Shown piece after piece: positions 43,732 through 62,028 of a stretch of DNA of 64,000 bases. The notes under the pieces are model-generated. The model was given only the letters and a program-made list of their open reading frames with translations. It searched no databases and was not told the DNA's origin. This DNA is from Burkholderia sp. Nafp2/4-1b (GTDB taxonomy: Bacteria; Pseudomonadota; Gammaproteobacteria; Burkholderiales; Burkholderiaceae): contig NZ_ML058599.1 in NCBI RefSeq assembly GCF_003635165.1, positions 124,001 to 188,000 of the forward strand, read 5' to 3'. The number at the start of each line of letters is the position of its first letter. The stretch's first letter is position 1. The position numbers were made by a program, and so were the translations under genes.

Positions 43732-44445
43732 TCAGAATAAAAGCCCGAGCATGGTCGCCTTGACCGCGGCTTCGGTCTTGTTGGTCGCGTTCAACTTGCG
43801 CATCGCATTGACGAGGTGAAATTTGACGGTGCGTTCGTCGACATTCATGATCTTGCCAATCTCGGCATAGGTTTTTCCCGCGGCAGACCATTGCAGCGTC
43901 TCGCGCTCGCGGGCAGTCAACTCGACGGTATATTCGGGCACGAACCGCGGGAGCAGATGCATGCTCATCGCATAGTTGGCTGTGTTCGCAAGCCATGACA
44001 TCTGGTATCCCTTTTCCGCGAGTTCGCGCTCGTCGATCGGCTCGCCTGAGCGGACCATGGTCACGAGTCCGATCGCCCCGGTGCGGCTGACGGACGGCAT
44101 GCACCAGCCGTGGCGCAAGCCGTGGTGGTCCGCTTCCTCCCAAAACTCGACGCACTGTGTCTGGCTATCGGCGCGCCAGATCAACGGGCCCATCTGACTG
44201 AGCCCATGCCGGACCGTCGGGTCCACGGCGAAATAGTTCTGGCTGACATAGCGTTCGACCCAGGTCTGCGGATAGTTGGACTGCAGCATGAACTGCGGCT
44301 TGCTGATCGGCAACGGCACGCGCAGACCGAACGAACAGTGCTCGAAACCAAGGGCTCGCACGTCCGCCGAAAACTCCAGAAACACGTCGGCCTCGGATTT
44401 TGCCGCTGCGTATCCGTTCAGATACTTTTCTCTCCAGGCATGCAT
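43732..44445 (-). CDS. LuxR-type N-acyl-homoserine-lactone receptor/regulator
   Basis: 237 aa, the family's usual size. AHL-pocket residues are conserved: Trp62, Tyr66, Asp75, Pro76 (DPTVRHGL) and Trp90 (PLIW); the DNA-binding HTH spans ~176-232 (LTARERETLQWSAAGKTYAE, MNVDERTVKFHLVNAMRKLN). AAAGG nine bases upstream favours ATG 44445 over the in-frame ATG at 44475. Divergent from the RsaM-like gene, with the LuxI gene beyond it. By position it corresponds to CepR2-type regulators of B. ambifaria, which control polyyne production. Confidence 0.92.
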   Translation of the reverse strand: MHAWREKYLNGYAAAKSEADVFLEFSADVRALGFEHCSFGLRVPLPISKPQFMLQSNYPQTWVERYVSQNYFAVDPTVRHGLSQMGPLIWRADSQTQCVEFWEEADHHGLRHGWCMPSVSRTGAIGLVTMVRSGEPIDERELAEKGYQMSWLANTANYAMSMHLLPRFVPEYTVELTARERETLQWSAAGKTYAEIGKIMNVDERTVKFHLVNAMRKLNATNKTEAAVKATMLGLLF

Positions 44446-44752
44446 ATCATTACCTTTGCGGTCAATCGTACCCATGAAGGGAGCTATATCGTATGGTTGA
44501 TGCGTTGACCGATTCTTTTTAAAAGCCGTTCAAGGGGACGGTTAAAACTTCCCGGTATCCAGTGACCGGCACGGTGTCGCGTGATGATTTTTTTCTTGGT
44601 GAGCGAATTTCGGGGCTTTCTGCGCCCGCGATGGGTAGATCGAGTAGTGGATTTTTCATGCAGGCTTGCCCTTTGTACACGCCGATAACGCGGTGGCATT
44701 CTTCAGGTGATCTGTAATAATCGTAAATCACATGTGCACGATCGAGCCGGCT
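44446..44752. other. Divergent promoter region luxR / rsaM-like
   Basis: 307 bp, AT-richer than average and gene-free. Contains a CCGGT-N8-ACCGG inverted repeat (44552-44569) that could be a variant regulator site; no canonical lux box was found on this side. Confidence 0.5.
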
Positions 44753-45256
44753 ATGAAGAATCACAACGCGCGCGCTGCGAGCGTTGCAATGGCCCTCGCG
44801 TGGCCGATCAGCGCGAATCTTGCCGAACTATTCGGAAGCGATTTTAACAGGTGTCACGTCGGGACAACGGATATGCCAAAAAGATGGAACGATGGATACG
44901 TACGAATGACTTTGCCGGCGTTCTACGCGCTGCGCTTCCGTCAGCATATGTGTCAACAAGCTCCGGACCTGCTCCATGATCTGTGGGGCGAGGGAATCAG
45001 CGCAGTCAATGCCGGCTACTACGAGCTGGTGTGCACCGACACGCAGCCGGCCGCGAGCGTCGGCTGCGCATGGTATGTGGCAGTGGGCCAGTCTGACGTG
45101 AAAGTGGGGCAAGGTGACGTCAGCAGCAATGTCATGCTCCTCGATACGGACGGTGACGATTACGGCGCGCGATACAGCCGAGCGTTAATCCAGAACTGGC
45201 TGTGCTCGGGAGCGCGTCAACGTGAGCTTGAATCGGCTGTCGTCGCCGATCACTGA
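44753..45256 (+). CDS. RsaM-like quorum-sensing modulator
   Basis: 167 aa, soluble, no known catalytic motif. Identified chiefly by position: RsaM proteins are encoded between luxR and luxI in Burkholderia and Pseudomonas fuscovaginae and dampen AHL production. Sequence features are a Trp/Asp-rich middle (MPKRWNDGYVRMTLPAFYAL), CAWYVAVGQSDVKVGQGD beta strands and Cys-containing LIQNWLCSGARQ near the end. The start is uncertain: 44753 is used, 44732 is possible, and neither has a strong ribosome site. Length agrees with RsaM (about 150-170). Confidence 0.72.
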   Translation: MKNHNARAASVAMALAWPISANLAELFGSDFNRCHVGTTDMPKRWNDGYVRMTLPAFYALRFRQHMCQQAPDLLHDLWGEGISAVNAGYYELVCTDTQPAASVGCAWYVAVGQSDVKVGQGDVSSNVMLLDTDGDDYGARYSRALIQNWLCSGARQRELESAVVADH

Positions 45257-45652
45257 TCTATGTCCGATGCATAGGACTATTTCTTCGAAAGGCCGTGGTT
45301 TTCGCGACTGCGCCGCGCATGCGTACAACGCGCACTTTCCCGCCGATTTTCCTGATCGGCATGGCGATGATTCGATCGCGGCTGCAATCATCCATGCCGC
45401 GATGACGTACCTCCAGATGCCTGCGTCGAATCGCCGATGACCCAGCGGGCTCGGGGGCGGTCGGTGCGACCGCTTCGCGAGCCATGGTCGGTTAAATCCT
45501 GAAACCGATTTTCTGTCGCAGTGCTTCGGCGCATTCGGCGCGACGAGTCGCGTCCACAACGCCCGAACCTGCCCATTCGGGCAGCTATTTCGTCCTCGCA
45601 TTTTCGGGTTCAATCGCGCTAACAATTCTGAGAAGAGAGAGAGGGCATTCAG
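45257..45652. other. Region between rsaM-like and luxI genes
   Basis: 396 bp containing the lux-box-like palindrome at 45567-45586. A plus-strand frame from 45267 to 45440 (57 codons) has no ribosome site and is not called. Confidence 0.5.
45567..45586 (+). promoter_or_regulatory. lux-box-like palindrome upstream of luxI
   Basis: ACCTGCCCATTCGGGCAGCT: six-base arms CTGCCC and GGGCAG with a four-base centre in a 20-bp element of the CT-N12-AG lux/las/rhl-box form. It ends 66 bp before the luxI start codon, the usual distance for a LuxR-type activator overlapping the -35 region. Confidence 0.75.
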
Positions 45653-46312
45653 ATGCTGACGCTATTGTCCGGCAGGCGCGCTGATTTGAGTCGCGAAACG
45701 ATGTATCGACTTGCGAAGTTTCGGCATAAGGTCTTCATACAGGAACTTGGATGGTCATTGCCTACCGACAATGGCATCGAATTCGACAATTTCGATCACG
45801 CTGACACCCTTTACGTTGTCGCTTGCGATCGCAACGGCGAAGTCGTCGGCTGCGGCCGGTTGTTGCCGACCGACGAGCCTTATCTGCTTGGCGAGGTTTT
45901 TGCGGATTTGATGGGCGACGCTTCCCTTCCCCATGCGCGCAATGTCTGGGAACTGTCCCGCTTCGCGATGAGCATGCCGCGCGGCGAGTCGTTGACTGCT
46001 GAAGAGTCGTGGCAAAACACGCGCGCCATGATGTCCGAAATCGTTCGCGTCGCGCACGCAAATGGTGCCAATCGCCTCATTGCTTTCTCCGTGCTCGGCA
46101 ACGAACGGCTCCTGAAGCGCATGGGCGTCAATGTGCACCGCGCTGCGCCGCCTCAAATGATCGAAGGCAAGCCGACCTTGCCGTTCTGGATCGAGATCGA
46201 TGAACAGACGCGCGCGGCGCTGAACCTCGACGGGGTGGAATGCAGCGGCGGCGTGCCGCTCGACATGTTGCGCAGCCTGGATGCGCCGCACGCGTTCGAG
46301 CGAGCGACATGA
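45653..46312 (+). CDS. LuxI-type N-acyl-homoserine-lactone synthase
   Basis: 219 aa. Makes the diffusible AHL from S-adenosylmethionine and an acyl-ACP. Conserved LuxI residues are present: Arg24, Phe28, Trp34, Asp45, Asp48, Arg69, Glu100 and Arg103 (RHKVF, LGW, FDNFD, GCGRLLPT, WELSRFA). GAGAGAGAGGG lies 10 bases before ATG 45653. B. ambifaria CepI2, at the matching place, is reported to make hydroxylated C10-C12 AHLs; the acyl length here is not readable from sequence. Confidence 0.94.
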   Translation: MLTLLSGRRADLSRETMYRLAKFRHKVFIQELGWSLPTDNGIEFDNFDHADTLYVVACDRNGEVVGCGRLLPTDEPYLLGEVFADLMGDASLPHARNVWELSRFAMSMPRGESLTAEESWQNTRAMMSEIVRVAHANGANRLIAFSVLGNERLLKRMGVNVHRAAPPQMIEGKPTLPFWIEIDEQTRAALNLDGVECSGGVPLDMLRSLDAPHAFERAT

Positions 46313-46419: not shown

Positions 46420-46479
46420 ATGAACGGCTTTAACGATGTGGCTCGGCGAGTCCTGGTCCGCGAGAGGAATGTGAAATGA
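46420..46479 (+). CDS. Possible 19-aa leader peptide
   Basis: ATG 46420 to TGA 46479, product MNGFNDVARRVLVRERNVK. Its stop overlaps the ketosynthase start (ATGA), the classic arrangement for translational coupling. AAGAGG lies 12 bases upstream, rather far. No other evidence that it is made. Confidence 0.28.
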   Translation: MNGFNDVARRVLVRERNVK

Positions 46480-47768
46480 CGGTTCGAGTGGTGGTAACCG
46501 GTATCGGCATTGTGTCCCCACTGGGTTGTGGCAAGGAATTGGCGTGGCAGCGCCTGATCGGCGGATGCTCGGGGCTTCGCCGCCTCGGCGACGATATTGC
46601 CGGTGAACTGTCCGCCAAGGTCGGCGGGACCGTCCTGGGGACGGCCGACGATCCCGACGGCGGTTTCGATCCGGAGCGCTCGGTACCGAACAAGGAACTG
46701 AGGAAGATGGACCGCTTCATCCAGATGGCGATGGTTGCCGCAGACGAGGCGCTCGCTGAAGCCGGATGGGCTCCGGAAGCAGAACGTCAGCGCGAACGGA
46801 CCGCTACCGTCGTCGCATCCGGCATCGGCGGATTTCCCGGCCTGGCGGAGGCGGTGCGGATCGGCGAGACCCGTGGCGTGCGGCGGTTGTCGCCGTTCAC
46901 CATTCCGTTCTTTCTGTCGAATCTGGCAGCCGGCCAGATTTCGATCAAGCACCAGTTTCGCGGGCCGCTCGGCTGCCCCGTCACGGCCTGTGCGGCCAGC
47001 GTGCAGGCAATCGGCGATGCGATGCGCATGATCAGGGCCGGCGAGGCCGACGTCGTCCTGGCAGGCGGCGCCGAAGCGGCATTCGACAAGGTCAGCCTGG
47101 GCGGCTTCGCGGCGGCTCGAGCGTTGTCGACCGGCTTTAGCGATCAGCCGGTTCGCGCGTCGCGTCCGTTCGATCGCGATCGTGACGGATTCGTCATGGG
47201 CGAGGGGGCCGCAATGCTGGTGGTCGAGTCGCTGGACCATGCCCTTGCGCGTGGCGCGCGGCCGATCGCGGAAGTCATCGGGTACGGCACCACGGCGGAC
47301 GCCTATCACATGACCGCCGGACCCGACGACGGATCGGGCGCGATGCGGGCGATGAAGCTGGCCCTCGCGATGGGCGACATCGCCCCGGAGCAGGTGGACT
47401 ACGTCAACGCACACGCGACATCGACGCCCGTCGGCGACTCCGGAGAAATCGAGGCGCTGAAGACTGTCTTCGGCGTGGGTGCCGGCCCGGCGATTTCGTC
47501 GACCAAGTCGGCCACCGGGCATCTGCTCGGGGCGGCAGGCGCCATCGAAGCGGCGTTCTCCATTCTTGCCCTCCGCGATGGTGTGCTGCCCGGAACGCTG
47601 AATCTCGAGCACCCTGACGCGGCCGCCGACGGACTGGATCTGATCGGGCCTGCCGCACGGCACGTGCCGGTCGAGATCGCACTGTCCAACGGGTTCGGAT
47701 TTGGCGGGGTGAATGCGTCGGTACTGTTCAAGCGATATCCGCCGGATCGGGCCGCAGCGGCGCATTGA
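46476..47768 (+). CDS. Beta-ketoacyl-ACP synthase II (FabF-type)
   Basis: 430 aa condensing enzyme. Cys172 (TACAASVQAIG), His313 (NAHATSTPVGD), Lys344 and His349 (STKSATGHLLGAAG) form the KAS active site, so it should be catalytically competent. FabF-type enzymes extend an acyl-ACP with malonyl-ACP. In this cluster it may supply or lengthen the C18-type chain before desaturation; minimal polyyne clusters often lack a dedicated KAS. Preceded by an overlapping 19-codon frame and GAGAGG. First biosynthetic gene after luxI. Confidence 0.93.
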   Translation: MTVRVVVTGIGIVSPLGCGKELAWQRLIGGCSGLRRLGDDIAGELSAKVGGTVLGTADDPDGGFDPERSVPNKELRKMDRFIQMAMVAADEALAEAGWAPEAERQRERTATVVASGIGGFPGLAEAVRIGETRGVRRLSPFTIPFFLSNLAAGQISIKHQFRGPLGCPVTACAASVQAIGDAMRMIRAGEADVVLAGGAEAAFDKVSLGGFAAARALSTGFSDQPVRASRPFDRDRDGFVMGEGAAMLVVESLDHALARGARPIAEVIGYGTTADAYHMTAGPDDGSGAMRAMKLALAMGDIAPEQVDYVNAHATSTPVGDSGEIEALKTVFGVGAGPAISSTKSATGHLLGAAGAIEAAFSILALRDGVLPGTLNLEHPDAAADGLDLIGPAARHVPVEIALSNGFGFGGVNASVLFKRYPPDRAAAAH

Positions 47769-47938
47769 GTGACGCTCACGTCGTTCGTGCACGATTCCTG
47801 ATTCCATCAGTACATCAAAGCGTTTGTATTTGACGCTGCACCGCGGTTCGCCGGTTCGCCATCCAGTCGATGGTGCCGGTGATGGCGGGTCACGTCTCGT
47901 GCAATCCGGATTCCGGTCGTTATCCAAGGGAATTTTCC

Positions 47939-49333
47939 GTGTTAGACACCCTCATCATCGGTGCCCGCTGTGCGGGCGCCACGCTCGCGATTCATCTGGC
48001 GCGCGCCGGCAAGCGCGTTCTGGCGATCGATGCAAACAATCTGCCGAGCGATCAACCGTTGTCCACGCACTGGATTTCGCCCTACGGGATGGCGTTGCTG
48101 GACGAGCTCGAGCTTGGCGACAAGGTACGCCGTTTCGCGCCACCGGTGCCAAGCATGATGTATGGCAACGACGACGTGACGGGCCGCATCGAGTTTCCCG
48201 TCGGCGCACGCTGCTCGTGCCCGCGTCGCATGGATCTCGATGCACTGTTGCTGGAGGAGGCACGCGCGTCGGGGGCTGAAGTCCGGACACGGACCAGATT
48301 GGTCGGCCTGTTGCGTGACGGCGAGCGGGTGACGGGCGCCGTGGTGGAACATGACGGCGCGCGCGAGGAGATCCGGGCGCGGGTCGTGGTGGGAGCGGAC
48401 GGTGCGCACTCGACGATGGCAGCGCTCGTCGATGCCGAGGAGTACCACGGCTACGACAGCCCCCGCGCGATGTACTGGGCGTACTGGCCGCGTCCGGACT
48501 GGTACGACACGGATCCGCGCTATCAAGGCGGGGCGATGAACTGCACCTTCGACGACGACATCGTCTTCGTCTTTCCAACCAACCGAGACCTGCTGCTGAT
48601 CGGGGTGGCATTCCCGAAAACGCAGTTGCCGGAGTGGAAAGGCCGCCCGCTCGAGAAGCTCACGGAAACGCTGAAGGCCAACCCTCACACGGCCCCGCTG
48701 ATTACCGGTGAGCCCGCGAGCAAGGTGCTCGGCGCATTGAAGCTGCACTTTTTCTTCCGTCAGGCGGCAGGGCGCGGCTGGGCCCTGGTCGGCGACGCGG
48801 GCCTCTTCATGGACCCCTCCCCCGGATTCGGAATTACCGACGCACTGCGCGATGCGCGCGCGCTCGGCCAGGCAATCGTCGAGGACGACGACCATGCGCT
48901 GGAGTGCTACTGGCGCCAGCGCGACGCGACCTCGATCGACCTGTTCGAATACTCGCGCGGCCGCGGCGCGCTCGGCCACAACAATCCGCTCAGCCGGATC
49001 CTGTACGCCAAGCTGACGGCCGACCCGGTGCTGCAGGCACGCTTGCTCGCTTCGCAGAATCGCCGTTGTTCGCCGTTTGCGGTGTTCGATCCCAGCGATA
49101 TCAAGAAATGGGCAGACGAGGCCGTTGCTCGCGGCGAAACGGACGTCATCCAGCCGCTGCTCGACATGTCCCGGCGAGGCGAGGCGATCCGCGCCGAGAT
49201 GGCGTTGCGCCAGCGTCTGGCAGAGGACGCGCATGTCAGGCGGGCGCAGGTGTGCGAGCTGGACGATATCCAGCCGGTGACCGCGGGCGGTGATCGAGAC
49301 GTTCGCGACGTTCGCGTCAGGGCGCCGCTATGA
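47939..49333 (+). CDS. FAD-dependent monooxygenase (p-hydroxybenzoate-hydroxylase/geranylgeranyl-reductase-like)
   Basis: 464 aa. N-terminal Rossmann loop is the variant LIIGARCAGATLAIHLARAG (ARCAG instead of GxGxxG), with RVLAIDAN for FAD-ribose; later the second FAD motif WALVGDAGLFMDPSPGFGITDAL. The middle carries RMDLDALLLEEA (RxxL) and VVGADGAHSTMAALV (DG motif). These are features of class A flavin monooxygenases and FAD-dependent halogenase/reductase relatives. Start is GTG 47939 after AAGGGA. In the cluster it is a candidate for epoxide or hydroxyl formation on the polyyne; reaction is inferred. Confidence 0.86.
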   Translation: MLDTLIIGARCAGATLAIHLARAGKRVLAIDANNLPSDQPLSTHWISPYGMALLDELELGDKVRRFAPPVPSMMYGNDDVTGRIEFPVGARCSCPRRMDLDALLLEEARASGAEVRTRTRLVGLLRDGERVTGAVVEHDGAREEIRARVVVGADGAHSTMAALVDAEEYHGYDSPRAMYWAYWPRPDWYDTDPRYQGGAMNCTFDDDIVFVFPTNRDLLLIGVAFPKTQLPEWKGRPLEKLTETLKANPHTAPLITGEPASKVLGALKLHFFFRQAAGRGWALVGDAGLFMDPSPGFGITDALRDARALGQAIVEDDDHALECYWRQRDATSIDLFEYSRGRGALGHNNPLSRILYAKLTADPVLQARLLASQNRRCSPFAVFDPSDIKKWADEAVARGETDVIQPLLDMSRRGEAIRAEMALRQRLAEDAHVRRAQVCELDDIQPVTAGGDRDVRDVRVRAPL

Positions 49334-49441
49334 GCGCGCGGAACACCGGCGCGTGGTCGTTGCGATCACGCGATTGCACGCCGTGGCGGGGCGCCAGTGC
49401 CTGTCGCCGGCCCAGCGTCGAGTAAACCGAGGAGAAAGCCC

Positions 49442-50524
49442 ATGACCATCGCAGCAACGTTGGACGGCAATGCCGCATTTTCGCGGCTCAAGCTGCCACG
49501 ACACTTCCACCGGATCAGTTCCGTCGCGACGATCCTCTATGTGGCGCACGCGCTCGCATTCTTCCTGATTCCGGCCGCAGTGGCGTTCGCCGTCGTCGAT
49601 ATCCCTGCGTCGACACCGGCCCGCATTGCGATGGCGATCGTCCTCGGCGTGATCGCCGGGCACGGCATGCACCTGCTGACCTTCGTCGGGCATGAGGGGA
49701 TGCACACGAACCTGCATCGCAACAAGTACGTGAGCGCCGCGCTGGCGCTCATCTGCTCGTCGCTGGTGCCGGGCTTCCTGATCGTGGGCTTCAGCATGAC
49801 CCACTGGAAGCACCATCGCTTCACCGGTCAGGACATCGACCCGGATGTGCAGATCTATTCGCAGTACCGCACCTTCTGGTCGCGCTTCTTTCTCGCGCGC
49901 TCCAAGGGCGTGCGGATCTACACGAAGAACGCCGTGCGCATGGCGGCCGGTCTTCCCTGGCCGGAAAACACGCGGCTGCCGTTCAGCCAGCGCGAAATGC
50001 GCTGGATCGCCCGGATCAACATCGCACTGAACCTGTGCGCGGTGACGGCTTACGGGTTCATCTGGCATCGCTCGTTGTGGCTCGGTTTCACGGTCATGCT
50101 GATTCCATATATCGGCGTATACGTGTTCAGCACCATCCGCGCGTACATCGAGCACACGGATACCGTGCCGGGGCGTTATCGCGATAGCCGCAGCTATACG
50201 TCGCCGATCTACACCGCGCTGTTCTTCGGCAGCAATTTCCATCTCGAACACCATCAGTATCCGGCTGTCCCGTGTTACCGGTTGCCCGCGCTCCACGCGT
50301 ACCTGGCGTCGCACGGGCTGCTCGCGGCGGCAGGCGCGCCGGTCGAGCCGTCCTTCCTTGGTGCGCTTCGCTATACGACGGGACGTTTCCAGTATCCCTG
50401 CGTCAACCTGCAGTCCGCGACCGACGATTTCCTCGAGCGGATGGCCGACGGGCGTCTCGATCGGGACGCGGCAGCGATGGACGCTGCGGACGGCGACGCG
50501 CTGGTCGCTGTCATGCGCAAGTAG
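49442..50524 (+). CDS. Membrane fatty-acid desaturase/hydroxylase-like di-iron enzyme
   Basis: 360 aa, four predicted membrane helices and the three His boxes of integral-membrane di-iron enzymes: HEGMH (84-88), HWKHH (121-125) and HLEHH (267-271). The HxxxH-HxxHH-HxxHH set and the late HQYPAVPCYRLP resemble beta-carotene-ketolase/hydroxylase- and sphingolipid-desaturase-type members more than Delta9 enzymes, so hydroxylation or epoxidation as well as desaturation is possible. GAGGAGA precedes ATG 49442. Probably a tailoring enzyme, distinct from the three core desaturases downstream. Confidence 0.88.
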   Translation: MTIAATLDGNAAFSRLKLPRHFHRISSVATILYVAHALAFFLIPAAVAFAVVDIPASTPARIAMAIVLGVIAGHGMHLLTFVGHEGMHTNLHRNKYVSAALALICSSLVPGFLIVGFSMTHWKHHRFTGQDIDPDVQIYSQYRTFWSRFFLARSKGVRIYTKNAVRMAAGLPWPENTRLPFSQREMRWIARINIALNLCAVTAYGFIWHRSLWLGFTVMLIPYIGVYVFSTIRAYIEHTDTVPGRYRDSRSYTSPIYTALFFGSNFHLEHHQYPAVPCYRLPALHAYLASHGLLAAAGAPVEPSFLGALRYTTGRFQYPCVNLQSATDDFLERMADGRLDRDAAAMDAADGDALVAVMRK

Positions 50525-54006: not shown

Positions 54007-55806
54007 ATGATGGCCGGTAGTATTCCCCCCTCCGCTCTGCTGGCGGAGCGCACGATCTCGTCTCTGCTCGATATCCTTCGAGAGCGTGCCGAGCACACAC
54101 CCGAGCGAATCGCCTTCCATTTTCTTCGCGACGGCGAGGACGACGTCGTGAGCTGGTCATACGGCCAGTTCGCCGCGGCTGCGGTCCATGTACGCGACAG
54201 GGTGCTGCAGCACGCGTTGCACGAACGGCGCGTATTGCTGCTGCTGGAACCCGGCCTGGGTTACGTTGCAGCGCTGTTCGGCATCCTGCTGGCGGGTGCC
54301 ACCGCGGTGCCTTCGTTTCCGCCGGCCGGCTCTCGCGCAGTGGCACGCTTCGCATCGATTTGCCGCGACGCTCATCCTGATGTGGTCATCGCCGGCAAGC
54401 ATCACCGATCGCTGCAACAGGAACTCGACGGGCTCCACGACGGCCGGCGCGCCGCGCCTGCGTTGCTGACGTTCGACGAACATGCGTTCGACGATATCGA
54501 CGCATCGGCGTATGACGTCCGCAGCGTGCTGGCGCAGCGTGTCGATCTGGATCGGCCGGCGCTGCTCCAGTACACGTCGGGATCGACGGGCGACCCCAAG
54601 GGCGTGGTCGTCACGCACGAGAATCTCGTCAGCAACTGCGCTGTGATCGCCGAACGGCTCGGCGCCGATCCGGACCGTGTCGGCTGCACGTGGCTGCCGC
54701 CGTATCACGACATGGGCCTGATGGGCGCACTGCTGCTCGCCGTGTTCAGCGGCTTTCCGCTCGTGATCCTGTCGCCGCAGCATTTCGTTCAGCGTCCGTA
54801 TCGCTGGCTCAAGGCGATCACTGACTACCGCGTGACCACGAGCGTCGCACCGAATTTCGCGTTCGACCTGTGCGTCGACCACATCAACGACGAAGAAGCC
54901 GCCACGCTCGATCTCGGCTCGCTGCAGCACGTATTCTGCGGCGCGGAGCCGGTGAGCCATGCGACGCTCGAACGTTTCTTCGCGCGCTTCGGCCGGCATG
55001 GCTTCGAGCGCCGCGCCGTAGTGCCCTGCTACGGAATGGCCGAGGCGACGCTCTATGTATCCGGCAAGGTGGGCCGTTCGCCGATCACGCTGATCGACGT
55101 CGACAAGGAAGCGCTCGCTCGGGGCGTGTGCGAGCCGCACGACCCGGCATCCGATGTGCGCGGGCGCACCACGCTGGTCGGCTGCGGGCCGGTGGCAGTC
55201 GGCCATCGGCTGCTGATCGTCGATCCTGCGACGAAGCGCGTGCTGCCGGAAGGGACCATCGGAGAAATCTGGTTCAGTGGTCCGAACGTCGCAGCAGGCT
55301 ATCTCGGCCGTGCGGACAGCGACGATGTCTTCGCGGCGGAGATCAGCGACGCAGACGGTGAGGACGATTCGATTCGTTACCTCCGCACGGGCGACCTCGG
55401 CTTTCTGAACCACGGCGAGCTGTTCGTGACGGGCCGGATCAAGGATGTGGTGATTGTCGCCGGTCGCAACCTCTATCCGACCGACATCGAGGGATCGGTG
55501 CAGTCTGCGCACGACGCGATTCGAACGAACGGCGTGGCGGCGTTTTCGATCGACGGCGGTCCCGGGGAGTCGCTCGTCATCGTTGCGGAACTCAAGCGCT
55601 CGCGCCGTCTGAGTCCGGAGCAAATGCGCGAGGTGCGAGCGGCGATCACGTTGGCGGTCACGCGCGATCACGGGGTTGCGCCGGCGGTGGTGCACCTTGG
55701 GCCGACGGGTGCGATTCCGCTGACGACTAGCGGCAAGGTGCGCCGGCAAGCGTGCAAGCAGGCGTTCCAGCAAGGCAGCTTGAGCACGCTCGAAGCCCGC
55801 GCGTAA
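54007..55806 (+). CDS. ccnJ: Fatty acyl-AMP ligase (FAAL), polyyne starter activation
   Basis: 599 aa, ANL superfamily. A3 motif QYTSGSTGDPKGVVVTHEN (~188), the FAAL-type WLPPYHDMGLMGALL (~230), CYGMAEATLYVSGK, IWFSGPNVAAGY and the A8/A10 end (RTGDLGF, IKDVVIVAGRNLYPTDIE, TTSGKVRRQ). FAALs make acyl-AMP and pass the acyl group to an ACP rather than to CoA. Immediately upstream of two desaturases and the ACP, as in every polyyne cluster. The gene symbol is that used for the cepacin FAAL of B. ambifaria; given from memory of cluster order, so treat as probable. Confidence 0.9.
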   Translation: MMAGSIPPSALLAERTISSLLDILRERAEHTPERIAFHFLRDGEDDVVSWSYGQFAAAAVHVRDRVLQHALHERRVLLLLEPGLGYVAALFGILLAGATAVPSFPPAGSRAVARFASICRDAHPDVVIAGKHHRSLQQELDGLHDGRRAAPALLTFDEHAFDDIDASAYDVRSVLAQRVDLDRPALLQYTSGSTGDPKGVVVTHENLVSNCAVIAERLGADPDRVGCTWLPPYHDMGLMGALLLAVFSGFPLVILSPQHFVQRPYRWLKAITDYRVTTSVAPNFAFDLCVDHINDEEAATLDLGSLQHVFCGAEPVSHATLERFFARFGRHGFERRAVVPCYGMAEATLYVSGKVGRSPITLIDVDKEALARGVCEPHDPASDVRGRTTLVGCGPVAVGHRLLIVDPATKRVLPEGTIGEIWFSGPNVAAGYLGRADSDDVFAAEISDADGEDDSIRYLRTGDLGFLNHGELFVTGRIKDVVIVAGRNLYPTDIEGSVQSAHDAIRTNGVAAFSIDGGPGESLVIVAELKRSRRLSPEQMREVRAAITLAVTRDHGVAPAVVHLGPTGAIPLTTSGKVRRQACKQAFQQGSLSTLEARA

Positions 55807-55866: not shown

Positions 55867-56826
55867 ATGGCTGAAGCAGATTCCTTGTCTTCGCGAACAC
55901 CCGCGGCCGCCCGTGCGGCTGAAGCCGACACCGACTTGCGCGCACGCCGGCTCGCTTATCTGACCGTGGGCATCCCCGCGCTCGGATTCGCGCTTGCGAT
56001 TGCATACACGTCGATGTACGGGGTGCGCACCACCGACTTCGTGCTGCTGGCGGTGATGTATTTCTCGACCGCGATCGGCGTCGAAACCGGCATGCACCGA
56101 TATTTCTCGCACCGCTCGTTCAAGGGACGGCCGATCGTCACCGTGATGCTCGGCGTGCTCGGCAGCATGGCCGCCCAGGGGCCGATCCTGTTCTGGGCCG
56201 CCACGCATCGGATGCATCACGCGTTCACCGATCAGGACGGCGATCCTCATTCGCCGCGCCCGCGCGCGAACCGGCACGGCAAGCCGAGCCGGCTCGCGGG
56301 CCTCTGGCACGGCCACGTGGGCTGGCTGTTCACCGTGCGCCGCGAGAACTGGAGCGCGTATGCCGCGGATCTGCTGCGCGACCGCCTGGTCGTCAATCTC
56401 AATCTGCGTTACGGGTGGTGGGTGCTGCTCGGCCTCGCGATTCCCGCGCTGGCGGGCGCGTTGCTCGCGCCCGTCGGACAGGCGTTGCTCGGGGCCGTCG
56501 GCGGTTTCCTGTGGGGCGGGCTCGCACGAATCTTCCTGCTCGATCAGTCGACCTGGGCCGTCAATTCGCTGTGCCACACCATCGGCACCCGTCCGCACGC
56601 GACGCGCGACCACAGTCGCAATCTGGGTCTGCTGGCGATCGTTTCGGTGGGCGGCGCGTGGCACAACAACCATCACGCGCAGCCAGCCTTCGCCAACAAC
56701 GATCACGCGTTCTGGCAACTCGATCCGTCCGCCTGGCTGATCCGCTTGCTCGACGCGCTGGGTCTCGTCACGGAGGTGCGCTATGCCCCGAAGCGCGGCG
56801 CGGCGGCTCCGTCAACTTCGCCGTAA
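55867..56826 (+). CDS. Acyl-ACP/CoA desaturase 1 of polyyne core
   Basis: 319-aa integral-membrane Delta9-type desaturase. His boxes: HRYFSH (77-82), HRMHH (114-118) and HNNHH (266-270), plus four membrane helices. Inserts a cis double bond with O2 and two electrons. Paired with the following desaturase, which is similar throughout (GSMAAQGPILFW and DGDPHSPR versus GSMAAQGPIMFW and QGDPHSPN), suggesting an old duplication. Located after FAAL; ATG 55867 follows a modest CGGAG site. Predicted substrate is the ACP-bound chain. Confidence 0.9.
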   Translation: MAEADSLSSRTPAAARAAEADTDLRARRLAYLTVGIPALGFALAIAYTSMYGVRTTDFVLLAVMYFSTAIGVETGMHRYFSHRSFKGRPIVTVMLGVLGSMAAQGPILFWAATHRMHHAFTDQDGDPHSPRPRANRHGKPSRLAGLWHGHVGWLFTVRRENWSAYAADLLRDRLVVNLNLRYGWWVLLGLAIPALAGALLAPVGQALLGAVGGFLWGGLARIFLLDQSTWAVNSLCHTIGTRPHATRDHSRNLGLLAIVSVGGAWHNNHHAQPAFANNDHAFWQLDPSAWLIRLLDALGLVTEVRYAPKRGAAAPSTSP

Positions 56827-56851
56827 TCCTAATTAGCGTTTGGAGAATCTT

Positions 56852-57835
56852 ATGAATTCGTCGATTCAGGTTGCACCCGGCGTGACTGCCGCCGGCGGGC
56901 TGTCGGCCGCCGACGGGCAGATCCCCGGTGTTTCGCCGCTAAAGGGCAGTGGGGCGCGCGTCAAACGCTATACCGCCCTGGCCGTGATGCTGGTGCCGCT
57001 TGCCGGCTTCGCGCTGGCGGTACGCCAGCTCGTGCTGGGTGACTTCGCCGTCACTGATCTGGTGCTGTTCGCGGTGTTCTATTTTCTGCACATGGGCGGA
57101 ATCACGATGGGCTTCCATCGGTACCTTGCGCACAAGACGTTCCGGACCTCGAAGTGGTTCGAAGGACTGCTGCTGATCTGCGGGTCGATGGCTGCGCAAG
57201 GACCGATCATGTTCTGGGTGACGACGCACCGCCGTCATCACCTGTACAGCGACCAGCAAGGCGATCCGCATTCGCCGAACCTGGTCGGCAAGGGCCTGTT
57301 CGCGAAACTGCGCGGCCTCTGGTATGCGCATATGCCGTGGATGCTGGCCCCGGACGTATCGGGCTGGACGTTCTTCGCCCCCGATGTGTTGCGCGACCGC
57401 CGCCTGTTTTTCTATCACCGTACCTACGCGTGGTGGGTCGTGTTCGGCCTCGTGCTGCCCGCCGTGATCGGCGGCGCCATTGCCGGCTCCTGGCAGGGCG
57501 CGTGGAACGGCCTGCTGTTCGGCGGATTCGCGCGGATTTTCCTGGCCAATCAGGCCGCCTGGTGCGTGGGTTCCGTTTGCCACATGTTCGGCGGAAGGCC
57601 GTTCAAGACCGACGACAACAGCGCGAACAACTGGACGGTCGCCGTGCTCACGTTCGGCGAAGGTCTGCAGAACAACCACCACGCGTTCCCCGCGTCATAC
57701 CGCCACTCGGTGAAGTGGTACGAGCCGGATCTCAGCGCGTGGGTGCTCTGGACGCTCGGCAAGCTGCGCGTCGTGTGGGATCTGCGCCAGCCGACCCCGG
57801 CGGCGATCCGCAAGCTCGCCAAGCAACCGTATTGA
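56852..57835 (+). CDS. Acyl-ACP/CoA desaturase 2 of polyyne core
   Basis: 327 aa, same fold as desaturase 1. His boxes HRYLAH (89-94), HRRHH (126-130) and third box QNNHH (273-277), in which Gln replaces the first His, as in several bacterial acyl desaturases. TGGAG six bases before ATG 56852 favours it over the in-frame ATG at 56840. The carboxyl end is basic (KLRVVWDL...IRKLAKQPY). May further desaturate or act as acetylenase; the order of action is not known. Confidence 0.9.
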   Translation: MNSSIQVAPGVTAAGGLSAADGQIPGVSPLKGSGARVKRYTALAVMLVPLAGFALAVRQLVLGDFAVTDLVLFAVFYFLHMGGITMGFHRYLAHKTFRTSKWFEGLLLICGSMAAQGPIMFWVTTHRRHHLYSDQQGDPHSPNLVGKGLFAKLRGLWYAHMPWMLAPDVSGWTFFAPDVLRDRRLFFYHRTYAWWVVFGLVLPAVIGGAIAGSWQGAWNGLLFGGFARIFLANQAAWCVGSVCHMFGGRPFKTDDNSANNWTVAVLTFGEGLQNNHHAFPASYRHSVKWYEPDLSAWVLWTLGKLRVVWDLRQPTPAAIRKLAKQPY

Positions 57836-57890: not shown

Positions 57891-58211
57891 ATGTCTCAAG
57901 CTGGAATCCTGGGCGGCCTGTTCGGCCGCAAGAAAGCGGTTGCTGCCGATGTCGGCCCGCTGACGGAAGCTTCGATCCGCAACTGGCTGGTCGATCGGCT
58001 CGCCAAGCAGCTGAAGGTGGACCGGGCTGCCATCGATCCCGCCAAACGCTTTGACGAGTACGGGCTCGATTCGATCGTTGCCGTGCAGGTGTCGGGCGAT
58101 CTGGAAAAGGTCGTCGAGCAGCGGCTGTCCCCGGCGTTGCTGTTCGAACACAACAGCATCGACGACCTGGCGCGCCACCTGTCGACCGAGCTCGGTCTGC
58201 AAGCGGCGTAA
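57891..58211 (+). CDS. Acyl carrier protein of polyyne pathway
   Basis: 106 aa. The phosphopantetheine attachment Ser61 is in YGLDSIVAVQV, with the usual upstream helix (SIRNWLVDRLAKQLKV) and the LSPALLFEHNSIDDLARHL helix II-III region. It has a ~20-residue basic N-terminal extension (GGLFGRKKAV) not found in primary-metabolism AcpP. Serves as the carrier on which FAAL loads the acyl chain for desaturation. Placed between desaturases 2 and 3. Confidence 0.93.
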   Translation: MSQAGILGGLFGRKKAVAADVGPLTEASIRNWLVDRLAKQLKVDRAAIDPAKRFDEYGLDSIVAVQVSGDLEKVVEQRLSPALLFEHNSIDDLARHLSTELGLQAA

Positions 58212-58224
58212 GCGGGAGATCGAC

Positions 58225-59322
58225 ATGGCGAACACCTACACTGTTCCGAGCGCGCCGCCGGCGCGTTTCGACGAATTCCTGCAGAAGTCGAAGTCGCTCG
58301 AGGGCGTGCGGCTGACCGATGCGATTCCGAAATCGCTATACGAACCTCGCGCGTGGCGCGGCGTTCTCGGCTTCGTGGTGAGCTATGCGGCGTACATCGG
58401 CGCGATTGTCGGCATCGCGTACGCACCGCACTGGCTGTTCTACATTCCGCTGTGGCTGCTTGCAGGTATGGGCGGCTGGGGGCTGCATTGCATCGCGCAC
58501 GATTGCGGGCATAACTCGTTTTCCCGCTCTCGATGGTTCAACCTGACAATCGGGCACTTGTCGCTTCTGCCGCTGCTGTATCCGTTTCACGCTTGGCGCC
58601 ACACGCACAACCTGCACCACGCGAATACCAACAACCTTGAGCTCGACACCGACTGGCGGCCGATTCCGGCGCCGCTTTACGATCGCATGCCGCTTCTCAA
58701 GCGCCTCGAGTACGCCGGCACCCGAAAGTGGCTGTTCTGGGCAGGTACGGTGAGCTACTGGAAGGAGTCGGGCTTCCGTCCGGGTTTCTATCCGAAGCGC
58801 GAGATGCGGCGCGACGTGAAACGCTCGATCGCCTTCGTGCTGTTCGTGTCCGCGCTCTATTTCCCGGCGTTGATCTATTTCACCGGCATCACGGGCCTGT
58901 TCCTGTACTTCGTCGTTCCGTGGCTCATGATTCATGCGTGGTTCAGCGCCACGACGCTGATGCACCACACGTCGGACGAGATCCCGTTCCTGCCGTCGCA
59001 GCACTGGACGCCGAACGCCAGCCGTCTGCTGGTGACGACCGACTACCGGTATCCGAAGTGGCTACACTTCATGACGCACAACATCTCGGTGCATACGGCG
59101 CACCACGTTGCGCCGATCGTGCCGTTCTACAACCTGCCGAAGGCACAGGCGGCGCTCAAGGAAGCATTTCCGGGAATGATCCGCGAGAAAGACTTCTCGT
59201 TCGGCGATCTGTGGCACGTGATTCGTCACTGCCACTTCTACGACGTCGAGTCCGGTTACTACCGGACCCTGTCGCGGGAGGCCGTGCCCGTCGGCGCCCG
59301 TGCGGCGACGGAGGGGCGGTGA
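58225..59322 (+). CDS. Desaturase 3 / putative acetylenase of polyyne core
   Basis: 365-aa FAD2/Delta12-type integral-membrane desaturase. His boxes HDCGH (92-96), HNLHH-type H-x2-H-H (128-132) and HTAHH (290-294). This subgroup includes plant and bacterial acetylenases that turn double into triple bonds. GGGAG precedes ATG 58225. The stop overlaps the hydrolase start by one base (TGATG), so translation is coupled. Different from desaturases 1 and 2 in His spacing and length, pointing to a separate step. Confidence 0.9.
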   Translation: MANTYTVPSAPPARFDEFLQKSKSLEGVRLTDAIPKSLYEPRAWRGVLGFVVSYAAYIGAIVGIAYAPHWLFYIPLWLLAGMGGWGLHCIAHDCGHNSFSRSRWFNLTIGHLSLLPLLYPFHAWRHTHNLHHANTNNLELDTDWRPIPAPLYDRMPLLKRLEYAGTRKWLFWAGTVSYWKESGFRPGFYPKREMRRDVKRSIAFVLFVSALYFPALIYFTGITGLFLYFVVPWLMIHAWFSATTLMHHTSDEIPFLPSQHWTPNASRLLVTTDYRYPKWLHFMTHNISVHTAHHVAPIVPFYNLPKAQAALKEAFPGMIREKDFSFGDLWHVIRHCHFYDVESGYYRTLSREAVPVGARAATEGR

Positions 59323-60245
59323 TGGTGTCAGCGAACCATACCGATGTCTCGCCGATCACGCGGCGCAGGGCGAAGGCGCCATCGTTGCGGGTTCGGCTCG
59401 GCCGCCGCGCGTTCCGGGTGCTGAATACCTTCGCGCCGCACGCGGCGGGGCGGCGGGCGGCCGACGCGTTCGGCTTCACGCGCGGCTATGGGCTGCCTGT
59501 CAGCGATCGGGTGCCGCTTGGTGCGAAGGAGGCGTTCATCGACGGCAATCCGGACATCGACCGGGCCTATTGCTGGGAGGGCGGCGCGTCGCGGGTGCTG
59601 CTCGTGCACGGTTGGGGCACCGACAGCAGCAGCATGCTGGGCTTCGTGAAGCCGATGCAGACGCTGGGCTTCTCGGTGGCGGCATTCGACGCGCCGGCGC
59701 ACGGCCGTTCACCGGGCAAGCATACGACGATGACCCAGTTCACCCGCGCGACGGGCGCCGTGCTGGACGCGATCGAAGGTGCGCAAGTGGTGATTGCGCA
59801 TTCGCTCGGCTCGATCGCGGCAGTCTCGGCGCTGGCGGAGCGCTCGCGCCGCGCATCGTTGCGCTGCATCGTGCTGATCGCCCCGACGAGCGGGTTGACC
59901 GAGGTGCTGGAGCGCTGGGCCAGCCGCGACATGGCATTCCCGCGCCCGGTGGTCGAGCGCATCTATGCGGAGCTGCGGCTACGCAACGGTGTGCCGGTCA
60001 GCCACTGGGACATTCTCGCGCGCGGCGCATCGCTCGACGTCCCGGTACTGGTCGTGCACGACCCGGCTGATGCGGTGGTGCCGTACTGCGAGGCGCAGCG
60101 CGTCGTGGCCGGCCTGCAGGAGGCGACACTGTGGCCGGCGCCGGGCACGGGCCACGGGAGAATCCTGTCGGATGCGAGGGTACGCGAGCAGGTGCGCGAA
60201 TTCGTGACGCGACAGACGTCGAATTTTGGAGAGTTGGCGAGATGA
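59322..60245 (+). CDS. Alpha/beta hydrolase (polyyne thioesterase-like)
   Basis: 307 aa. Oxyanion motif LLVHGWGTDSSS (~93-104), nucleophile Ser161 in VVIAHSLGSIAAVS, acid Asp250 (or Asp247) in VVHDPADAVVP and His278 in GTGHGRIL. The N-terminal ~60 residues are basic. In polyyne clusters a hydrolase in this place is thought to release the free acid from the ACP. The start overlaps the acetylenase stop and its own stop overlaps the rubredoxin start (ATGA), so three genes are translated as a unit. Confidence 0.88.
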   Translation: MVSANHTDVSPITRRRAKAPSLRVRLGRRAFRVLNTFAPHAAGRRAADAFGFTRGYGLPVSDRVPLGAKEAFIDGNPDIDRAYCWEGGASRVLLVHGWGTDSSSMLGFVKPMQTLGFSVAAFDAPAHGRSPGKHTTMTQFTRATGAVLDAIEGAQVVIAHSLGSIAAVSALAERSRRASLRCIVLIAPTSGLTEVLERWASRDMAFPRPVVERIYAELRLRNGVPVSHWDILARGASLDVPVLVVHDPADAVVPYCEAQRVVAGLQEATLWPAPGTGHGRILSDARVREQVREFVTRQTSNFGELAR

Positions 60246-60427
60246 GCACGACAGCGGTGGAGATGCGCACATTGATGTGTCTGGTGTGCGGCTGGATTTA
60301 CTCGGAACAACAGGGTGCGCCGGAAGAAGGCATTGCACCGGGCACGCGCTGGGAAGACATTCCGCCCAAATGGAAGTGTCCGGAGTGCGGCGTCGGCAAG
60401 GAGGATTTCGAAATGGTCTCGATCTGA
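60242..60427 (+). CDS. Rubredoxin
   Basis: 61 aa. One iron is held by Cys13, Cys16 (LMCLVCGWIY) and Cys46, Cys49 (WKCPECGVGKEDF). Small one-electron carrier. Rubredoxins accompany polyyne desaturases and alkane hydroxylases, feeding electrons to integral-membrane di-iron centres; that is the inferred role here. No rubredoxin reductase is encoded in the window, so the host's general reductase is presumably used. Overlaps the hydrolase stop by 4 bp. Confidence 0.94.
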   Translation: MSTTAVEMRTLMCLVCGWIYSEQQGAPEEGIAPGTRWEDIPPKWKCPECGVGKEDFEMVSI

Positions 60428-60594
60428 CGCGATGGAGGGGCGCGCGTCGTCCCCCCATCCTTGCGTCCGCAAGCATAAGAGAGGATTTTGCGAGCGTGCG
60501 TCGCATGCGAAGCAGGATCCTCTTCCCGCAAGCGGCTCGTGACGTTGCGGCGGCATCCGCGCCGCAAGCACCGGGCCTTGAATGGAGTGTTGAA

Positions 60595-61779
60595 ATGGTT
60601 GCTCGACAAGTAGTGATCTGCAGTCCCGTAAGGACCCCTATTGGTGCGTTTGGCGGCACGTTGAAGGACGTTGCGGCGACGGCGCTGGGTGCAGTCGCGG
60701 TGCGCGAAGCGGTACATCGCAGCAAGGTCGATCCGGCCGAGCTGGCGTCGGTCGTGATGGGCAACGTCGTGCAGGCTGGAAACAAGATGAATCCCGCGCG
60801 TCAGGCAGCCGTCGCGGGAGGTATTCCCGTGACCGTGCCGGCGTTTACCGTGAATCGCGTGTGCGGCTCCGGTGCTCAGGCCATCGTGAACGCGGCCCAG
60901 GAAATCTGGCTCGGGTTCGGTGAGGTTGCGGTGGCGGGCGGAATGGAGAGCATGGACCGCGCCCCGTATCTGCTGGAAAGCGGCCGATGGGGCCATCGGA
61001 TGGGGAATGCCGAGATCGTCGACAGCATGCTTGGGGATGGTCTCGTCGACGCGTTCTCCAACCGGCATTCCGGATGGCACACGGAAGATCTCGTTTCAAC
61101 GATGGGAATAACGCGCGAGCAGCAGGACCGCTGGGCGGAACGGTCGCAAAGGCGCTTCGCGGACGCACAAGCACGGGGCGCGTTCGACGCCGAGCTGGTC
61201 GCGGTCGAAATCGAGGGGCGGAAACAGGCCGTCAGATTCGAGCGCGACGAGCAGCCGCGTCCGGATACGACGCTCGAGTCGCTTGCCAAATTGAAGCCCG
61301 CGTTTCGATCCGACGGCACCATCACCGCGGGCAATGCACCCGGATTGAACAGCGGTGCGGCGGCGATGATCGTGGCGGAGCGGCGATATGCCGAGACGCG
61401 TGGCATCGAGCCGATCGCCACGCTTGTTTCCTGCGGCGTGGGGGCGGTTGAGCCGGGCATGTTCGGGCTCGGGCCCGTGCCGGCGGTAAGGATGGCGCTC
61501 GCCCGTGCCGGCTGGTCGGTGAAGGACGTGGAGCGTTTCGAGATCAACGAGGCCTTTGCCGCCGTGCCGATCGCGGTCCTTCGAGAACTCGGCATAGCTG
61601 AAGAGTTGGTCAATGTCGACGGCGGAGCGATCGCGCACGGTCACGCGATAGGCGCGACCGGTGCTGTTTTGACGACCCGTCTCGCGCATTCGATGCGCCG
61701 TGACGGCATCAAGCGCGGCATGGTGACTTTGTGCATCGGCGGTGGGCAGGGCATCGCCCTCGCGCTGGAAGCCGTCTAA
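60595..61779 (+). CDS. Thiolase (acetyl-CoA acetyltransferase family)
   Basis: 394 aa. Catalytic Cys90 (NRVCGSGAQAIVNAA), second Cys380 (TLCIGGGQGIALALE) and His350 are present. The C-terminal His loop reads GGAIAHGHAIGATGA, where the family norm is GGAIALGHPxGASG, and CIGGGQG replaces CIGGGMG, so the pocket is unusual. GGAG before ATG 60595. Could shorten or extend acyl chains by C2 units (C18 precursor to a shorter polyyne). It is 167 bp after rubredoxin in the same direction, so linkage to the pathway is probable but not certain. Confidence 0.88.
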   Translation: MVARQVVICSPVRTPIGAFGGTLKDVAATALGAVAVREAVHRSKVDPAELASVVMGNVVQAGNKMNPARQAAVAGGIPVTVPAFTVNRVCGSGAQAIVNAAQEIWLGFGEVAVAGGMESMDRAPYLLESGRWGHRMGNAEIVDSMLGDGLVDAFSNRHSGWHTEDLVSTMGITREQQDRWAERSQRRFADAQARGAFDAELVAVEIEGRKQAVRFERDEQPRPDTTLESLAKLKPAFRSDGTITAGNAPGLNSGAAAMIVAERRYAETRGIEPIATLVSCGVGAVEPGMFGLGPVPAVRMALARAGWSVKDVERFEINEAFAAVPIAVLRELGIAEELVNVDGGAIAHGHAIGATGAVLTTRLAHSMRRDGIKRGMVTLCIGGGQGIALALEAV

Positions 61780-61839
61780 CGGCATCTCGGTCCCGACAAT
61801 GGACGACAACTTCGCGTCATCAGCAACCACGGAGAAGAC

Positions 61840-62028
61840 ATGGACCAGCGTTCAGCACTGGAAGACCTGAGTGCGCTTGCCGCGACCCGGCATACGACCA
61901 CGCAGGCCGAGCTTGCGCGCAGGTGGTTGTCCCATTTCGGGGCCGACCGCGTGCAGGATCTCGATCTCGGCATACTGGAGGCGATTGCCTGCTATGTCCG
62001 GAAGGGAATATCGCCTCCGAATGAATAG
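61840..62028 (+). CDS. Small unknown protein at end of polyyne cluster
   Basis: 62 aa, not recognised. Helical, soluble: RSALEDLSALAATRHTTTQA, ELARRWLSHFGADRVQDLDL, then LEAIACYVRKGISPPNE. One Cys. GGAGAAG lies eight bases before ATG 61840, a good ribosome site, and it follows the thiolase by 60 bp on the same strand. Downstream the sequence becomes AT-richer and gene-free, which may mark the cluster border. Size and charge resemble small accessory or adaptor proteins, nothing more can be said. Confidence 0.6.
   Translation: MDQRSALEDLSALAATRHTTTQAELARRWLSHFGADRVQDLDLGILEAIACYVRKGISPPNE

Follow-up and report, generated by a model that had tools for sequence, protein, structure and literature searches.

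A complete cepacin-type polyyne cluster in Burkholderia sp. Nafp2/4-1b with a MasL-like thiolase and a probable tandem NTF2-like protein

The analysed DNA, here called the window, is a stretch of 64,000 nucleotides of contig NZ_ML058599.1 from Burkholderia sp. Nafp2/4-1b. Positions 43732 to 62028 hold a divergent luxR gene, an rsaM-like gene and luxI, followed by 13 co-directional genes running from a ketoacyl synthase (KAS) to rubredoxin, and then a thiolase gene and a gene for a 62-aa protein. Every named gene is an open, unbroken frame on inspection of the ORFs in the window. In the list below, the letters ccnA–ccnI, ccnK–ccnM, ccnO and ccnP are putative, and ccnN is set by published primers.

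43732..44475, minus: LuxR-type regulator, putative ccnA (Pfam Autoind_bind 1.5e-35, and GerE)
44732..45256, plus: RsaM-like protein, DUF4902, putative ccnB (Pfam DUF4902 1.7e-19)
45568..45585, no strand: lux-box-like site CCTGCCCATTCGGGCAGC (6-bp arms CTGCCC/GGGCAG, 4-base centre)
45653..46312, plus: LuxI-type acyl-homoserine-lactone synthase, putative ccnC (Pfam Autoind_synth 2.5e-25)
46476..47768, plus: FabF-type beta-ketoacyl-ACP synthase, putative ccnD (Pfam; NCBIfam NF004970 7.7e-200, above cut-off)
47870..49333, plus: FAD-dependent monooxygenase, putative ccnE (Pfam FAD_binding_3 7.6e-26)
49397..50524, plus: extra membrane desaturase/hydroxylase, putative ccnF (Pfam FA_desaturase 5.8e-30)
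50604..51608, plus: Rieske oxygenase of VanA type, putative ccnG (Pfam VanA_C 7.8e-34, Rieske 2.5e-23)
51605..52492, plus: probable tandem NTF2/ketosteroid-isomerase-like protein of 295 aa, putative ccnH (half-profiles match 3mso and 3flj)
52497..53927, plus: EmrB-like MFS exporter, putative ccnI (Pfam MFS_1 6.3e-46; TIGR00711 1.7e-67, slightly below cut-off)
54007..55806, plus: fatty acyl-AMP ligase (FAAL), ccnJ (Pfam AMP-binding 4.1e-68; 92% to B. latens)
55867..56826, plus: core desaturase 1, putative ccnK (Pfam; 49–95% across 17 loci compared)
56840..57835, plus: core desaturase 2, putative ccnL (Pfam; third His box QNNHH)
57891..58211, plus: acyl carrier protein (ACP), putative ccnM (Pfam PP-binding 4.3e-16)
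58225..59322, plus: core desaturase 3, ccnN (published ccnN primers, 514 bp; Pfam)
59322..60245, plus: alpha/beta hydrolase or thioesterase, putative ccnO (Pfam Hydrolase_4 3.6e-15)
60242..60427, plus: rubredoxin, putative ccnP (Pfam 2e-21)
60595..61779, plus: MasL-like thiolase, probably a spare target copy that protects the producer (best PDB match MasL 7ei3)
61840..62028, plus: 62-aa protein (82–89% in 4/4 other Burkholderia ccn loci)

The seven-gene polyyne cassette of FAAL, ACP, three desaturases, thioesterase/hydrolase and rubredoxin is complete by Pfam. It is the set that, in the consulted sections of PMC8406139, defines bacterial polyyne clusters, and its order (FAAL, two desaturases, ACP, desaturase, hydrolase, rubredoxin) agrees with that in the available text of PMC9098870. 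A sequence-only reading had proposed a cepacin-type polyyne cluster consisting of this core, a LuxR-RsaM-LuxI set in front, and FabF, FAD monooxygenase, extra desaturase, Rieske oxygenase and exporter. Pfam matches bear out each of these members, and gene content, order, ccnN primers and gene counts support the cluster type. Its coordinates place the named genes correctly, apart from small corrections to the hydrolase (59322–60245), rubredoxin (60242–60427) and thiolase (60595–61779). Judged by what we take to be the active-site motifs of desaturases, ACP, KAS, Rieske oxygenase, rubredoxin and thiolase, the desaturases contain their histidine boxes, and DSI in the ACP, TACA plus two His motifs in the KAS, CxH...CxxH in the Rieske oxygenase and CxxC twice in the rubredoxin are present. 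The QNNHH box of core desaturase 2 recurs in 18/18 other loci examined. The extra desaturase may start at GTG 49397 or ATG 49442, and it shows weak similarity, below cut-off, to carotene hydroxylase models.

Cepacin is a plant-protecting antibiotic with carbon–carbon triple bonds, and its cluster (ccn) was reportedly described from Burkholderia ambifaria BCC0191 by Mullins and colleagues in 2019. The window very probably holds a complete, intact cepacin cluster at 43732–62028, with cepacin as the predicted product. The ccnN primers given in the retrieved part of PMC10485841 match core desaturase 3 at 58732–58751 and 59226–59245 with 1 and 2 mismatches, spanning 514 bp, exactly the published amplicon size; in 100 shuffled controls neither primer matched at ≤3 mismatches. 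These mismatches indicate that the window stems from another species or strain than the B. ambifaria primer source. According to the excerpt of PMC9518984, the cepacin cluster comprises 13 biosynthetic genes in a single operon with luxRI upstream. Correspondingly, 13 genes lie on the plus strand from the KAS (46476) to rubredoxin (60427), with luxR and luxI ahead of them. The B. ambifaria BCC0191 locus-tag range in the text obtained from PMC8406139 (ccn sequence HWW27_RS03890-RS03965) corresponds to 16 genes if the tag step is five, and the portion of PMC12838130 consulted names the cluster 'ccnA-P', with the FAAL as ccnJ. The window thus resembles the BCC0191 cluster in its 13 one-direction genes, luxRI position, ccnN primer sites and spacing and seven-gene core. 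The sequence-only reading had proposed a comparison of gene order and protein identity with the B. ambifaria cluster. Primers and gene count agree with that cluster; the comparison and the lettering rest on primers, gene counts and anchors rather than a base-by-base alignment, which was counted against the call. Also counted against it were 2/18 cluster-bearing strains in which, in the same part of PMC10485841, cepacin was undetectable on either medium. The kind of cluster is already known, and the locus adds another Burkholderia example.

The same 19 genes occur in the same order in 5/5 Burkholderia ccn loci, namely the window, L023, L024, L103 and L104, of which L023 and L024 end within luxR. 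The proteins of the other four are 76–98% identical to those of the window. In L023, from B. latens LMG 24064, identities range from 83 to 98%, the rsaM-like protein (83%) and the 51605 protein (86%) being among the most divergent. L163 is a sixth ccn locus that lacks three genes, those for the thiolase, the RsaM-like protein and the 62-aa protein, a further point counted against the cepacin call. The window shares its polyyne core and a thiolase of the same kind with the massilin (mas) cluster of Massilia sp. YMA4; according to the accessible text of PMC9098870, the mas cluster has lost the MFS gene, whereas the window has one.

The gene at 51605–52492, which overlaps the Rieske gene by 4 nt, encodes a protein apparently built from two tandem NTF2/ketosteroid-isomerase-like domains. 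Single-sequence searches of the protein gave no match in Pfam, NCBIfam, PHROGs or PDB, and neither half matched Pfam when searched separately. With profiles, the C half matched 3flj (1.9e-7) and 3mso (2e-7), and the N half matched 3mso (6e-4) and 3flj (2.1e-3). The two halves resemble each other in hhalign at E 7e-5, though with a probability of just 63%. A gene without any database family thereby becomes a fold-based, testable candidate for the allene or lactone step of cepacin. Cepacin carries a lactone and an epoxide, and Lsd19 is a two-domain polyether enzyme that acts as an epoxide-opening cyclase. The protein might, as a tentative alternative to an alkyne-to-allene isomerase, be an epoxide-opening lactone cyclase comparable to Lsd19. 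The protein would combine two NTF2-like domains in one chain, and a distant full-length relative in L107 lies directly behind a FAAL-PKS gene, a likely spot for a cyclase. Against this stand the annotation of the named PDB relatives as (putative) ketosteroid isomerases and the lack of an assignable catalytic residue. An AlphaFold2 model from an alignment of 5 rows reached a pLDDT of 31. As an isomerase, the tandem protein would convert an acetylenic bond in the polyyne chain to the cepacin allene by a ketosteroid-isomerase-like proton shift, a specific role that we consider rather unlikely. If true, it would explain why a diynyl allene arises here and tri- or tetraynes arise from the core elsewhere, and two-domain proteins with an NTF2-like fold would have a new function in nature. 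The excerpted text of PMC8406139 singles out the formation of the diynyl allene from the common polyyne core as a step. The literature text searched, which did not include Mullins et al. 2019, mentions no role for the 51605 gene and yielded nothing usable on a SnoaL link.

The thiolase behind the operon has MasL (7ei3) as its best PDB match, with 496 bits vs 399 for the next, and is 61% identical to it. The type II thiolase residues C90/H350/C380 are present. In the consulted passages of PMC9098870 (Lin et al. 2022), MasL is both polyyne target and self-resistance enzyme, and a MasL-type gene is noted in the ccn cluster as well. The sequence-only reading had left the 51605 gene, the thiolase and the 62-aa gene with no assigned step; given the role described there, this no longer applies to the thiolase and continues to apply to the 62-aa gene. 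The MasL-like thiolase of the window probably serves as a copy of the polyyne target that protects the producer. It is doubtful that it is instead an ordinary metabolic gene beside the cluster, protecting nothing, even though it lies behind the 13-gene operon described for cepacin and close copies (E 1e-150 or better) are common, occurring in 85/299 family genomes, mostly (77/85) without a polyyne desaturase, which itself was found in 10/299. It adjoins the cluster in 5/5 Burkholderia ccn loci and retains the collimonin-contacting MasL residues R135, H158 and P249. Furthermore, in the one stretch of B. cenocepacia compared, colinearity with the window starts only at position 62052, past both the thiolase gene and the 62-aa gene, so these two probably belong to the acquired segment. 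The contact residues are not diagnostic, as they also occur in 10/10 close copies checked outside ccn clusters; H158 is missing from seven own-genome paralogues and present in an eighth, L112.

Close thiolases were found in 8/10 genomes with a polyyne desaturase vs 77/289 without (p 0.0009, kinship uncorrected); minus the five in-cluster copies, the association is 3/5 (p 0.13, kinship uncorrected). The thiolase was rejected as a polyyne marker because of the close copies in 85/299 genomes, and this lack of specificity to polyyne makers was also counted against the cepacin call. The ccn thiolase has GHA instead of GHP at the catalytic histidine, with alanine as the next residue; this was rejected as a cepacin-specific change, since it also occurs outside ccn clusters. 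Trees, all omitting the contig-end copies L115 and L116, place the ccn thiolase within a group of Burkholderiaceae sequences, not beside MasL, together with the G253 thiolase and others outside ccn clusters. An AU test on a tree that also omitted four long-branch own-genome rows rejected a ccn+MasL clade at p 0.019, a moderate result for a group chosen after the tree was seen; in that tree MasL joined L173 (91/89) and did not fall outside. Neither the trees nor the AU test showed the ccn thiolase and MasL to descend together within a polyyne cluster. As its nearest relatives come from genomes without a detected polyyne desaturase, the ccn thiolase was probably recruited apart from MasL, which suggests repeated entry of a self-protection thiolase into polyyne clusters.

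Five tailoring genes, encoding the KAS, FAD monooxygenase, extra desaturase, Rieske oxygenase and tandem NTF2-like protein, are present in 6/6 ccn loci. At the related core loci L025, L026 and L027, no tailoring genes were found (3/3) save a Rieske gene (40, 40 and 53% identity), and two of the three carry a C-terminal fragment of the 51605 protein. It is very improbable that the core builds the chain and divergent tailoring yields a related polyyne other than cepacin: close cores (core desaturases 80–94% identical) in B. stagnalis, Burkholderia sp. SRS-46 and B. singularis, at loci that lack most of the tailoring genes, imply that something beyond the core decides the product, but all five tailoring genes are 83–98% identical in the four other Burkholderia ccn loci. 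One of these loci comes from B. latens, which a figure legend in the retrieved part of PMC10485841 lists among cepacin-producing bacteria. The literature text retrieved offered nothing usable on B. stagnalis polyynes.

The LuxR is 92% identical to its counterparts in L103/L104 and 40% identical to the LuxR adjoining the genome's other luxI, and the LuxI is 45% identical to the other LuxI. DUF4902, which we take to be the RsaM family, is represented by a protein with 76–83% identity in the four other Burkholderia ccn loci. The palindrome CCTGCCCATTCGGGCAGC sits about 70 nt upstream of luxI and has a single exact match in the genome; the site near the other luxI differs from it. A CTG-N10-CAG site is present in 6/6 ccn loci, with L103/L104 differing by one arm base and L163 by one centre base. 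At ≤3 mismatches the genome contains 15 matches vs 7 for the reversed control, so the exact site alone is taken as meaningful. The palindrome points to a quorum switch of the cluster's own, with one exact site in the genome. The retrieved literature contained nothing usable on an RsaM link, one match there referring to radical-SAM.

In the proposed scheme, LuxI would make a signal with which LuxR binds the palindrome, activating luxI together with the operon that follows, while the RsaM-like protein would damp this switch. The FAAL would load a C16 fatty acid onto the dedicated ACP, the three rubredoxin-fed desaturases would form conjugated triple bonds, and the hydrolase would release the chain. 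The five tailoring proteins would then lead to the oxygenated diynyl-allene, to be exported by the MFS protein, with the thiolase as a spare copy of the polyyne target shielding the producer. Observed in the sequence are the genes and their order, their conservation, the primer identity, the palindrome and, at profile level, the fold of the 51605 protein. The core chemistry and the role of MasL are taken from papers, and the individual steps in this strain, like the product, are predicted. The portions of PMC9518984 and PMC10485841 consulted report that cepacin guards pea seedlings against damping-off and that work towards biopesticides has included cloning of the cluster.

The 62-aa gene appears to be genuinely protein-coding, with a dN/dS of 0.26–0.36, and distant relatives of its product are about 58 aa long.

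The cluster at 43732-62028 of the window (G000:C3:124001-188000; genome of 7.79 Mb in 92 contigs) is, on its sequence, the cepacin (ccn) cluster, and the cepacin-type polyyne cluster proposed in the sequence-only reading was recognised correctly, with ccnN primer sites and gene counts in agreement. The RT-PCR primers given for cepacin ccnN, with an amplicon of 514 bp (PMC10485841), each have a single site in the window (58732-58751 and 59226-59245), and the interval they enclose is exactly 514 bp; a shuffled-sequence control for these primers gave no match. Cepacin is described as encoded by a single operon of 13 biosynthetic genes with luxRI in front (PMC9518984), and the window likewise has luxRI in front of 13 genes from KAS through rubredoxin. 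From luxR through rubredoxin there are 16 genes, the number derived from the B. ambifaria BCC0191 locus-tag range, assuming that tags step by five (PMC8406139), and that of the published lettering ccnA-P, in which the FAAL is ccnJ (PMC12838130). Counting from luxR as A places the window FAAL at J and the primer-matched desaturase at N; from these anchors and the counts, we infer the ccn letters of the remaining genes.

Every gene listed previously is an open frame at its coordinates, and Pfam agrees with the assigned families for all except a 295-aa protein (51605-52492) and a 62-aa protein. The Rieske gene overlaps that of the 295-aa protein by 4 nt, as the hydrolase gene does that of rubredoxin; such overlapping or near-touching gene ends are operon-like. 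Colinearity with one B. cenocepacia stretch begins only at 62052, which suggests that the acquired segment stops immediately past the 62-aa gene. The cluster itself is ordinary in kind. Beyond its recognition, the analysis adds a probable fold for the 295-aa protein, a history of the thiolase, and a candidate switch.

Among the best 80 of 578 FAAL relatives from named genomes, identity is 92% in B. latens, 87% in Burkholderia sp. Bp9142, 82% in SRS-46 and B. stagnalis, 73% in B. singularis, and at most 54% thereafter. Seventeen loci were compared with the window gene by gene. All 19 genes are present in conserved order in four of them (L023 from B. latens LMG 24064, L024, L103, and L104). L163, from a different genus of the same family, carries 15 of the 19; the rsaM-like gene, thiolase, and 62-aa gene are absent from the locus, read to 2.6 kb past rubredoxin, and a thiolase of 70% identity lies elsewhere in its genome. 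A seven-gene core is retained at three further loci, with 73-94% identity to ccn:

L025 (Burkholderia sp. SRS-46), L026 (B. stagnalis), L027 (B. singularis): cores around 8.4-17.5 kb

Of the five tailoring genes, these loci show just a Rieske gene, plus a C-terminal fragment of the 295-aa protein in two of the three; KAS, FAD monooxygenase, extra desaturase, LuxI, and LuxR of ccn are unmatched there. These cores possibly direct the synthesis of a different polyyne. L025 and L026 show weak matches only for the MFS (30-31%) and thiolase (35-36%) genes, and L027 has an unrelated MFS_4 gene. A polyyne-type core with 45-67% identity to ccn also occurs in B. multivorans WS-FJ9 (L034, 9923-18532), where an FA_desaturase_2/AurF-like gene precedes rubredoxin and a cytochrome P450 lies behind.

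In the second core desaturase (56840-57835), the third histidine box reads QNNHH rather than HNNHH. The same box is found in 18 of 18 other loci examined (L023-L028, L031-L034, L036, L038, L041, L042, L047, L103, L104, L163) and may be a signature of a triple-bond-forming desaturase.

The candidate switch is a palindrome before luxI:

45568-45585: lux-box-like site CCTGCCCATTCGGGCAGC, ~70 nt before luxI, in which two perfect arms of 6 bp flank a centre of 4 bases

It is the sole CTG-N10-CAG site common to the six ccn loci between luxR and KAS, with one arm base changed in L103 and L104 and one centre base in L163. The exact palindrome occurs once in the genome, and the next-best match departs from it at 2 positions; allowing up to 3 mismatches yields 15 sites, compared to 7 for the reversed control. 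The sites by the genome's other luxI differ from it, and the cluster LuxI and LuxR share 45% and 40% identity with that other pair. Since the luxI-KAS gap of the window contains no CTG-N10-CAG site, luxI is placed at the head of the operon as its probable leading gene.

The best PDB match of the window thiolase is MasL from the massilin cluster of Massilia sp. YMA4 (496 bits vs 399 for the runner-up). Polyynes are reported to bind covalently at MasL Cys90, masL rescues Candida albicans, a masL mutant still produces polyynes, and the ccn cluster is stated to contain such a thiolase gene (Lin et al., PMC9098870). C90, R135, H158, P249, H350, and C380 are conserved in 5/5 ccn thiolases. Other findings speak against a simple reading. 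Of 299 family genomes, 85 have a close copy (E 1e-150 or better), the same residues are present in 10/10 of those inspected, and the ccn thiolases nest among these copies while MasL falls outside them (support values 100/98 and 97/97). The nearest copy (85%) belongs to G253, which is not one of the ten genomes, in a draw of 299 from the family, with a match to the third core desaturase at E 1e-90 or better. A tree forcing ccn and MasL together is rejected (p 0.019). We infer that the thiolase was probably recruited separately into the ccn and mas clusters, with the same protective use, which is predicted for this strain too.

The 62-aa gene is present in 5/5 Burkholderia ccn loci, with dN/dS of 0.26-0.36 in four comparisons. 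Weak relatives (38-43% over ~44 aa) occur in three more of 65 genomes, and one ccn genome has such a relative at another location as well. The two whose complete frames were read encode 58 aa each and share W-x(2)-[HY]-F-G-A ... D-L-D-L-G-x-L.

As a single query, the 295-aa protein matched nothing in Pfam, NCBIfam, PHROG, or PDB searches. A nine-row profile retrieved NTF2-like structures, in each case through the C half: 3flj (8.7e-7), 3mso, named a steroid delta-isomerase (3.7e-6), and 3f8x (6.6e-5). With its own profile, the C half matches 3flj and 3mso at 2e-7, and the N half 3flj at 2.1e-3 and 3mso at 6e-4; the two halves are also similar to one another by hhalign (E 7e-5), though with a probability of only 63%. 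An NTF2-like fold is probable. The protein is matched in 11 of 65 genomes of the genus, its own included. Identity is 86-89% in four of the other genomes, and the remaining matches are at 24-30% or are fragments of 46-48%. Its dN/dS of 0.17-0.24 in five comparisons indicates purifying selection. At full length it accompanies the tailoring genes in 6/6 ccn loci and is found in 0/3 core-only loci. Ketosteroid isomerase converts acetylenic ketosteroids to allenes, and Lsd19 is an epoxide-opening cyclase with two NTF2-like domains. The ketosteroid-isomerase-like protein is a reasonable candidate for the allene or lactone step of cepacin, and might by analogy act as an allene-forming isomerase or an Lsd19-like epoxide-opening cyclase.

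Relatives of this protein lie directly behind large synthase genes at L107 (4272-16807), L105 (12-11044), and L164 (9058-17995). The L107 synthase is a FAAL-ACP-KS-AT-DH-KR-TE protein, with nitroreductase and aconitase-like genes after the relative; L105, where the large frame is a putative synthase gene, also has an aconitase-like gene, and the large frame of L164 matches FAAL, KAS, and ACP. Single-domain relatives of the C half are widespread (L111, 7410-7886, on C1 of the own genome; L143-L159), most starting with MKFNDTAP. The two searched, L110 and L111, had no Pfam match; L111 sits between alpha/beta hydrolase and AraC-type regulator genes.
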